Below are positions 6,560-8,247 of a stretch of 42,006 nt of DNA, in pieces. Source of the stretch: a virus. The notes beneath the pieces are model-generated. The model saw only the letters and a program-made list of their open reading frames with translations, made no database searches and had not been told where the DNA came from. How positions within the stretch are numbered: the stretch's first letter is position 1; every line of letters begins with the position of its first letter. The translations under genes and the position numbers were made by a program. The DNA is taken from positions 1 through 42,006 of the IMG/VR virus record IMGVR_UViG_3300017989_000200. The stretch is one strand, 5' to 3'.

Positions 6560-8247
6560 TGATTACGGCACCGACTTATCGTCTGCGCCTGCCGAGTCGG
6601 GCGGACCGCGAGAAGCTACTGGCCCGGCGAGGCGTTCAGGGGGCCCTGGCGAAGGCGGCGATCACGGAAGCCGCGGCGAGCTCGCCGGCCCGCGGCGTGG
6701 GCGGTTTCACGCACTGGTGTGCGAATCACGTCAAGATCGAGACTAAGGACGGGGCGACACCGTTCATCCTGTGGCCAGGACAGGCCCGCGTGGCGCGTCA
6801 ACTGGTAAGTGGTACGTGGGTGCTGGCGTTGAAGGGTCGGCAGGTGGGCTTCACGTGGGTCGTAGCTGCCTACGTGCTGTGGCGGCTGACGTTCGAGAAG
6901 GTCTATTCCGTCGTCGTGGTCAACCAGGAAAAGCAGTACGCGTACGACTTCATCGAGCGTGTGCGTTACATGTACGACCATCTGCCCGACTGGTCGCGCA
7001 TGGAGTTGACGAAGGACACGATGAGCCTGCTACGCTTTTGGGCAGGGGACAAGCGCACCGAGGTCCTTAGCGTGGCGGGCAGCAGCAAGGCGGCACGGTC
7101 AAAGACCGGCGATCTCTTTGTCGGTGACGAGGGCTCGCGGATCCCGGCCCTGGGGGCCACGTTGACCGCTGTGCTCCCGGTGCTCGAAAAGCGCGGCGGC
7201 CAGGCGATCCTCATGTCAACCTCGGCCGGACCCACGGGCGACTTCAAAGGGGTGTGGGACGCCACGTTCGGGGAGCATGGAGAGAACCTCAACGAGGACG
7301 GCGTCGGGCCCACGCGGTTCATGCCCATGTTCATCCACTGGAGCGAAGTGCCTGGCCGTGACCACGCGTGGTATGCACAGCAGGCGGCGGAGCTCGGCCA
7401 CCTGTCGCCCGTGGCGCTGAAGCAGGAGCATCCCAATACGATCGCCGAGGCCTGGGAGCACGCCATGGGGCGGCTCTTTCCGCTCTTCGGCCAGCAGAAC
7501 ATCGGGACGATTCAGATCACGGATCGCTTCACGCGGTACCGGTCGATCGACTGGGGCGAGACCAAGAGCGCCTATGTGGTCTTGTGGGCTGCCGTGCTCG
7601 ACGGAGCTCCCCCGGGCTTCATCGTGAGCCCCGACTGCCCCAATACCATCCGGGAAATGACGGCTTGGCGGTTCGACGAGGCCACGGGGCGCCCGGAGAA
7701 GGTGAACGATCACACGTGCGACGCGGTCCGCTACCTGGTGACGACGGCGAAGATCACGGGGCTGGTCTACATTTATCGGGAGGTGTACCGTTTAGATTCT
7801 CTGACGCAGGGGTATACTCCCATGAAAGAGATCCGTGAGCTTCACGAGCTGTCGGGGTGGGTCCGAGCGTATCCGGAAGAGGAGCGACACTGGAAACCGA
7901 GCAGGGACGCCGAGATGTTCCAGACCACGATCTTCGACCGGTCCTTGGGCAAGATGGGGGCGTTGTTTCGAGAGCACGGGATCCCCTGCAAGCCCTGTGC
8001 ACCCCTGAAGGACTTTGTCACCGGCCGCACGGACAAGGATCGCGACGAGGTCATGGAAGGTGTCCGCTTGATCAACAACCTCATCGACGGGACGGAGATG
8101 ATCAGCAAGCGGATCCACGTTCAGCGTGGCCCGGCGGTTCGCAAGGTGTTGGGTTTCGACGCGACGGAATCGCTGACTGTGACGCAACGGCGGGTCCTGG
8201 CTCGGCGGTATTTCCGAGGGAGGGCTCGGCAGCGGGCAGGGCGATAA
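6559..8247 (+). CDS. terL: Terminase large subunit (packaging ATPase-nuclease), nuclease domain apparently permuted
   Basis: 562 aa. The ATPase domain shows the Walker-A variant LKGRQVGFT (Lys92; the K-x-R-Q-x-G form used by many terminases) and Walker B DLFVGDE (Asp190, Glu191). LMSTSAGP is the coupling motif. The RuvC/RNase H-like nuclease starts with RSIDWG (Asp331). Normally the order is then the strand ending YVYREVY, the second acidic residue, and last the C-terminal CPNTIRE...DHTCDAVRYL segment. Here that last segment (about residues 350-401, Asp388) comes before VYIYREVYR and TTIFDRS (Asp460). All pieces are present, but in a shuffled order. The start overlaps the upstream stop. It drives DNA into the prohead at the portal and cuts headful or unit lengths. 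Confidence 0.93.
   Translation: MITAPTYRLRLPSRADREKLLARRGVQGALAKAAITEAAASSPARGVGGFTHWCANHVKIETKDGATPFILWPGQARVARQLVSGTWVLALKGRQVGFTWVVAAYVLWRLTFEKVYSVVVVNQEKQYAYDFIERVRYMYDHLPDWSRMELTKDTMSLLRFWAGDKRTEVLSVAGSSKAARSKTGDLFVGDEGSRIPALGATLTAVLPVLEKRGGQAILMSTSAGPTGDFKGVWDATFGEHGENLNEDGVGPTRFMPMFIHWSEVPGRDHAWYAQQAAELGHLSPVALKQEHPNTIAEAWEHAMGRLFPLFGQQNIGTIQITDRFTRYRSIDWGETKSAYVVLWAAVLDGAPPGFIVSPDCPNTIREMTAWRFDEATGRPEKVNDHTCDAVRYLVTTAKITGLVYIYREVYRLDSLTQGYTPMKEIRELHELSGWVRAYPEEERHWKPSRDAEMFQTTIFDRSLGKMGALFREHGIPCKPCAPLKDFVTGRTDKDRDEVMEGVRLINNLIDGTEMISKRIHVQRGPAVRKVLGFDATESLTVTQRRVLARRYFRGRARQRAGR

Follow-up and report, generated by a model that had tools for sequence, protein, structure and literature searches.

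The large terminase (TerL) encoded in a 42,006-base virus record of IMG/VR (referred to here as the window, i.e., the whole stretch of DNA that was analyzed) has its nuclease in the block order X-C-B, as opposed to the usual X-B-C, behind an otherwise ordinary ATPase. We consider it highly probable that this is a non-circular permutation of the TerL nuclease, in which the C block was moved into the turn between β2 and β3 and the B block became the C-terminal part of the domain. It is also probable, although we hold this with less confidence, that an RNase H-like domain has here been permuted non-circularly in nature and conserved in that form, the first such case described for a packaging terminase, with an active site assembled from reordered blocks and a rewired C-terminal coupling between ATPase and nuclease. 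Because block X stays first in the change from X-B-C to X-C-B, the domain as a whole is not rotated, and the arrangement is therefore not a circular permutation.

The terminase gene, its ATPase domain, and its neighborhood

The TerL gene (6559..8247, plus strand) encodes 562 amino acids in one unbroken frame and matches terminase families of both PHROG and Pfam. It is the phage's own packaging terminase, and a profile scan of the 42-kb window found no other match to a TerL nuclease. The ATPase domain (6706..7488, plus strand; residues ~50–310) is of the T4-like N-terminal type, with conserved KGRQxGxT (K92) and DE (D190, E191) motifs. Terminase_6N, the Pfam family of the T4 gp17-type ATPase, matches residues 90–227 with 24.4 bits (cut-off, 22), and the N-terminal part also matches several PHROG terminase families, while residues 90–237 matched gp17 itself only with an E value of 0.0047. 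Residues K92, R94, Q95, G97, and T99, together with D190 and E191, are invariant in all 12 members of the family described below, and the window protein thus has both the nucleotide-binding and the Walker B motifs of a packaging ATPase. Its P-loop (6829-6855, plus strand; residues ~91–99) reads LKGRQVGFT, with an early lysine (K92, invariant in the 12) and none before the threonine, which we take to be a Walker A motif of the displaced-lysine type.

The head genes lie downstream. In 10 of 11 relative contigs, tblastn places a match to the portal protein gene (13209..15452, plus strand; phrog_156) downstream of the permuted TerL, and in 9 of 11 a match to the major capsid protein gene (16416..17702, plus strand; phrog_14242, major head protein) lies downstream of the portal, so that portal and capsid genes accompany the terminase in the window as well as in most of its relatives. 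In one of these contigs, L199, neither portal nor capsid was matched within the 12.6 kb examined, and a DUF5131-like match was observed downstream of TerL. In the window, a DUF5131 protein (2504-3889, plus strand; E 7.9e-55; phrog_2045) is encoded upstream of the packaging genes, and a small protein with a RyR domain (8898-9386, plus strand; Pfam E 9e-9) has phrog_5154 matches. A giant ORF of 4075 amino acids (26642-38869, plus strand) matches N6_Mtase (1.1e-6) and, weakly and below the cut-off, Helicase_C; its product is possibly a polyvalent injected or anti-restriction protein.

Block order of the nuclease

Block X (7513..7605; residues 319–349), on the plus strand like all features of the gene, comprises β1 and β2 and carries the putative first catalytic aspartate, Asp331, in IDWG (codon 7549..7551). 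It is followed by block C (7606..7758; residues 350–400), the strand-helix-helix unit CPNTIRE...DHTCDAVRY, which is normally C-terminal and is found here between β2 and β3. CPNTIRE occupies residues 360–366 and DHTCDAVRY residues 384–392, the latter including Asp384, His385, and Asp388 (codons within 7708..7722) of the putative third catalytic motif DHxxD, in which Asp388 is the third aspartate. Block B (7759..8091; residues 401–511) then begins with β3, VYIYREVY (residues 403–410), with Glu408 of the ExY motif (codon 7780..7782), and continues with a family-specific insertion containing HELSGW, the putative second catalytic aspartate Asp460 (codon 7936..7938; DPS-like) in IFDRS, the EVMEGV motif, and the helix EVMEGVRLINNLIDG. 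The gene ends with tail Y (8092..8244; residues 512–562), a basic C-terminal extension with no match to the nuclease profile; the tails of the 12 family members are rich in arginine and lysine. The original prediction had placed IDWG, CPNTIRE, DHTCDAVRY, VYIYREVY, and IFDRS correctly, while its span of 7544-7950 lies within the feature and covers only part of it, the whole nuclease running from ~7513 to 8091.

The order of the blocks was assessed with a profile of ordinary-order nucleases, which was built from 10 annotated-phage terminases and 80 viral-contig loci and contained 88 rows, 2 of the 90 having been omitted as too short or devoid of the motif. Each block matched this profile on its own: X at columns 52–78 (9.7 bits, 0 of 2000 shuffles as high), C at columns 157–209 (55 bits, 0 of 2000), and B at columns 82–139 (6.9 bits, 1 of 2000), block B reaching only 2.8 bits when the whole window protein was scanned with the nuclease profile. 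An earlier and shallower profile of 10 terminases placed X and C at the same positions with weaker support (shuffles as high: 2 of 1000 for X and 8 of 1000 for B), and its match to block B was only one residue long. PHROG profiles of the nuclease end likewise match the middle of the window protein (residues 354–400), and in a PDB sequence search block B precedes block C in the D6E terminase, whereas it comes after block C in the window.

Comparison of the 12-member family with the 88-row profile by hhalign assigned X to columns 33–81 (probability 97.1%), B to 81–155 (95.3%), and C to 157–206 (99.6%), with block B in register at the ExY, DPS-like, and GI..V motifs; a linear hhalign comparison with the 10 annotated phage TerLs passes over block B. 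Since the family blocks tile the profile without missing core columns, nothing of the nuclease core is lacking, and its last two blocks have changed places. The permuted order that had originally been read from the motifs alone is thus borne out by the piecewise matches with their shuffle controls and by the profile-profile comparison. The DHxxD helix is not the last element in the window or in any of its 11 relatives, all of which are X-C-B; because the ordinary block order is usual but not defining for TerL, we regard the permuted enzyme as a variant of it.

The far higher score of block C than of X or B against ordinary terminases (55 vs. 9.7 and 6.9 bits) might also mean that C was captured from another terminase into the β2-β3 turn, with subsequent loss of the resident C block, and the ATPase type does differ from that of many of the terminases giving the best C match. 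Ordinary terminases too are most conserved in block C, however, so that a higher C score is expected, and the blocks tile the profile with neither overlap nor gap. We therefore regard such a capture, which would yield the same protein, as rather unlikely, if still the most credible of the alternatives.

Relatives and phylogeny

Eleven other IMG/VR contigs (L191–L201) from nine datasets share the X-C-B order, with 39–52% identity to the window in the nuclease; all 12 members of the family are metagenomic contigs, and none is from an isolate. A first scan for relatives returned distant terminases only; an alignment-based scan gave two contigs (L097 and L098) with 44 and 41% identity, whose translations are in the X-C-B order, and two further scans enlarged the set to the 11 contigs. 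Among the 50 loci encoding a relative in the last scan, 11 are X-C-B and 39 have a single contiguous match in ordinary order (L207 and L235 being partial). The DHxxDxxRY motif lies 8–72 amino acids from the C terminus at all 80 loci of another scan, which are in ordinary order (L033 and L087 being fragments); in the 12 permuted members the catalytic motif lies 170–189 amino acids from it. Five relatives out of 11 (L193, L194, L196, L198, and L199) have a block B below the 3-bit floor of the ordinary profile, and L200 likewise lacks a match in one of the scans; in the relatives with only X and C above this floor, block B is visible through the family alignment. In the original prediction, relatives sharing this order counted as a refutation only if the motif assignment also proved wrong; eleven such relatives exist, and the assignment is not wrong.

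In a tree of the N-terminal (ATPase) parts, the 12 permuted members form one clade (100/100), separate from the T4 gp17 type, and the window clusters with L199 and L201 (99/98); an earlier tree with six permuted members gave the same result. Because some terminases with a similar ATPase carry the same type of nuclease in ordinary order, the permuted order is most simply taken as derived.

Other candidates and queries did not add to the family. L001, L002, and MW202803, the first relatives found by ATPase, have a different type of nuclease; Labelle and PSonyx, considered as possible isolates of the family because tblastn matched them weakly over C and B, are both in ordinary order; and the hit in L006, the sole contig obtained with the window capsid protein, is fortuitous and lies in a large tail-like ORF. 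There was no match to TerL in the genome contigs or plasmids scanned, none to the nuclease region as a single query in phages or viral contigs, and none to the window portal in viral contigs, and block B as the sole query in phages gave unrelated genes only. A terminase ORF of 784 amino acids in L132 (618-2969) matches the nuclease profile in part (37–110, at residues 541–618) and may contain an insertion, for instance an intein.

Conservation of the putative active site

In the G20c terminase, D294, D347, and D429 are described as indispensable, with H427 and D428 assisting (PMC5389553). The three metal-binding carboxylates of a RuvC-like nuclease are likewise present in the window protein as Asp331, Asp460, and Asp388, and are invariant in all 12 members. 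Altogether 85 positions are invariant in the family, including D384, H385, and E408 in addition to these three. Within block B, H429, S432–W434, and E452 of the insertion between β3 and the second catalytic strand (7840-7860 and 7912-7916, plus strand) are also invariant in 12 of 12, and this insertion, specific to the family, has no counterpart in ordinary terminases.

It is conceivable that the permuted order is real and that the nuclease is nevertheless inactive or serves another role, with the DNA cut by another protein, as might be thought from the fact that the coupling of ATPase and nuclease must differ from that in D6E-type enzymes. Several observations make this improbable: D331, D384, H385, D388, E408, and D460 do not vary, identity to the window is about as high in the nuclease (39–52%) as in the ATPase (44–54%), the nuclease dN/dS of 0.06–0.17 (four pairs, not all independent) indicates purifying selection, and the window has no other terminase-nuclease match. 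The working permuted RNase H-fold nuclease of the original prediction is thus well supported as a putative enzyme by 11 contigs, the invariant residues, the low dN/dS, and the predicted fold of a relative (L191).

Predicted structure

An AlphaFold2 model of the full-length window protein, computed from six alignment rows, was fair in the ATPase and had a pLDDT of ~30 in the nuclease. The model of the L191 nuclease, which represents a relative and not the window, reached a pLDDT of 82.7 and a pTM of 0.82; its alignment combined the 12 permuted rows with 29 C fragments of ordinary terminases, only C fragments being added because MAFFT did not place the ordinary X and B fragments on the family. 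In a Foldseek search of the PDB with this model, chains of the D6E terminase were best (E 1.2e-4, 4.0e-4, and 1.0e-3), followed by G20c (0.058). The Foldseek TM-scores were low (0.35–0.39), as would be expected from the changed block order, but they would equally fit a poor match.

In a re-alignment of the L191 model (VIA), the first 20 rows were terminase nucleases throughout, with Z from 9.2 to 5.9. The rows beyond, with a highest Z of 5.8, were folds of the actin-like and other RNase H-like kinds, which places the terminases above this background, though moderately. The best row (Z 9.2, rmsd 2.8, 129 residues) superposed blocks X and B, at 2–217 of the model, on D6E 233–364; it left D6E's own block C (369–417) unaligned, block C of the model forming an insertion. 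The ranges for SPP1 (237–362) and T4 gp17 (362–510) end early likewise and, given the domain ends of those chains, probably do not include their C blocks. Since the aligner preserves chain order, these rows are silent on whether block C takes its usual place. The profile matches and this predicted fold together point to a C-terminal nuclease with an RNase H fold, as in other large terminases.

These terminase matches also bear on whether the motifs were assigned wrongly and the domain is something other than a permuted terminase nuclease, a reading suggested by the weak similarity of block B to ordinary terminases in single-sequence tests and by the lack of any nuclease-domain match of the window protein in Pfam. 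Block B is nevertheless found in the right register with a profile-profile probability of 95.3%, and Pfam Terminase_3C finds block C with the end of its profile (97–154/155) in 3 of 4 relatives, below its cut-off; a wrong assignment is accordingly very improbable. An artefact of the sequence, be it misassembly, chimeric amplification, or something else, for which the short similar words at the three block borders of the window could be cited, is rejected as next to impossible, because the order recurs in a single frame and at low dN/dS in 11 diverged contigs from nine datasets, and the shared word is 7 bases long and absent from the relatives.

Proposed working and origin of the permuted nuclease

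The non-circular permutation, which we prefer to these alternatives, is compatible with a simple working model. Each block border holds an invariant glycine (G349, G401, and G511) and short linkers, by which block C is held in the β2-β3 turn; it would pack in its usual place despite its new position in the chain. Asp331, Asp460, and Asp388 would then coordinate two metals for cleavage of the DNA concatemer, as in the G20c or SPP1 terminase. As the chain no longer ends with the catalytic helix, any C-terminal contact with the ATPase, of the type of the D6E arm, is presumably lost or re-made by the tail after residue 511, a basic segment that is the new chain end. The catalytic helix runs straight into β3, which predicts that no D6E-like arm is possible at that point.

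The permutation appears to be old and is compatible with one origin. It likely arose in one old event, e.g., a tandem duplication of B-C after which the leading B and the trailing C disappeared. A short-homology move had been proposed from the word TCGACGG shared by donor and target points, and the word is indeed present at 7598..7604 and 8084..8090 (plus strand). The chance of an in-register run of 7 in the TerL gene is 0.0029, and that of any shared 7-mer between two 24-mers is 0.031. The shared word is not kept in the relatives, however: at these two places, none of the 11 has a shared run in register longer than 4 bases, the runs being of 2 to 4. We therefore reject this route, since the permutation predates the window lineage and the 7-base word is confined to the window, where the pair is uninformative about the old event.

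Comparison with known systems

The D6E, G20c, and SPP1 large terminases have the ATPase-nuclease layout and the nuclease motifs in common with the window protein and are its best sequence and fold matches; the DHxxD helix closes the nuclease in these enzymes, whereas in the window it lies in mid-domain and leads directly to β3. The nuclease of G20c and similar terminases is RNase H-like and of the RuvC type (PMC5389553), and in D6E the stretch past the last helix extends as a C-terminal arm to the site of the ATPase (PMC5727402). A permuted terminase nuclease was not found in searches of the open full-text literature, and a word search of the main text of a survey of the RNase H-like superfamily (PMC3985635) gave no word beginning with "permut."

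DNA amino-methyltransferases are known in permuted classes, with the catalytic motifs in differing linear orders on one fold, and this fold is unrelated to that of the window nuclease. Permuted phage methyltransferases are mentioned in a passage of PMC7824862. The nearest phage precedent for the block swap in TerL is the major capsid protein of BPP-1, a non-circularly permuted HK97 fold in which the last two of three elements are likewise exchanged with the fold kept (PMC3863775); the same paper calls such permutations rare in nature. The BPP-1 case concerns a different protein and fold with a structural role, whereas the window case concerns the active site of an enzyme.

The large terminase, which is used as a phylogenetic marker, ranks with the best-conserved proteins that tailed phages and herpesviruses have, and in alignments that include permuted TerLs a third of the nuclease would be misplaced without notice. 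A permutation fixed in an essential enzyme offers a natural way to test which connections of the chain the packaging nuclease requires, and the permuted clade also tests the need for a C-terminal arm of the D6E type in coupling ATP use to cutting. It seems that an ancient packaging enzyme can be rewired: its blocks are swapped, yet sequence, conservation, and predicted fold suggest that it is in a working state.
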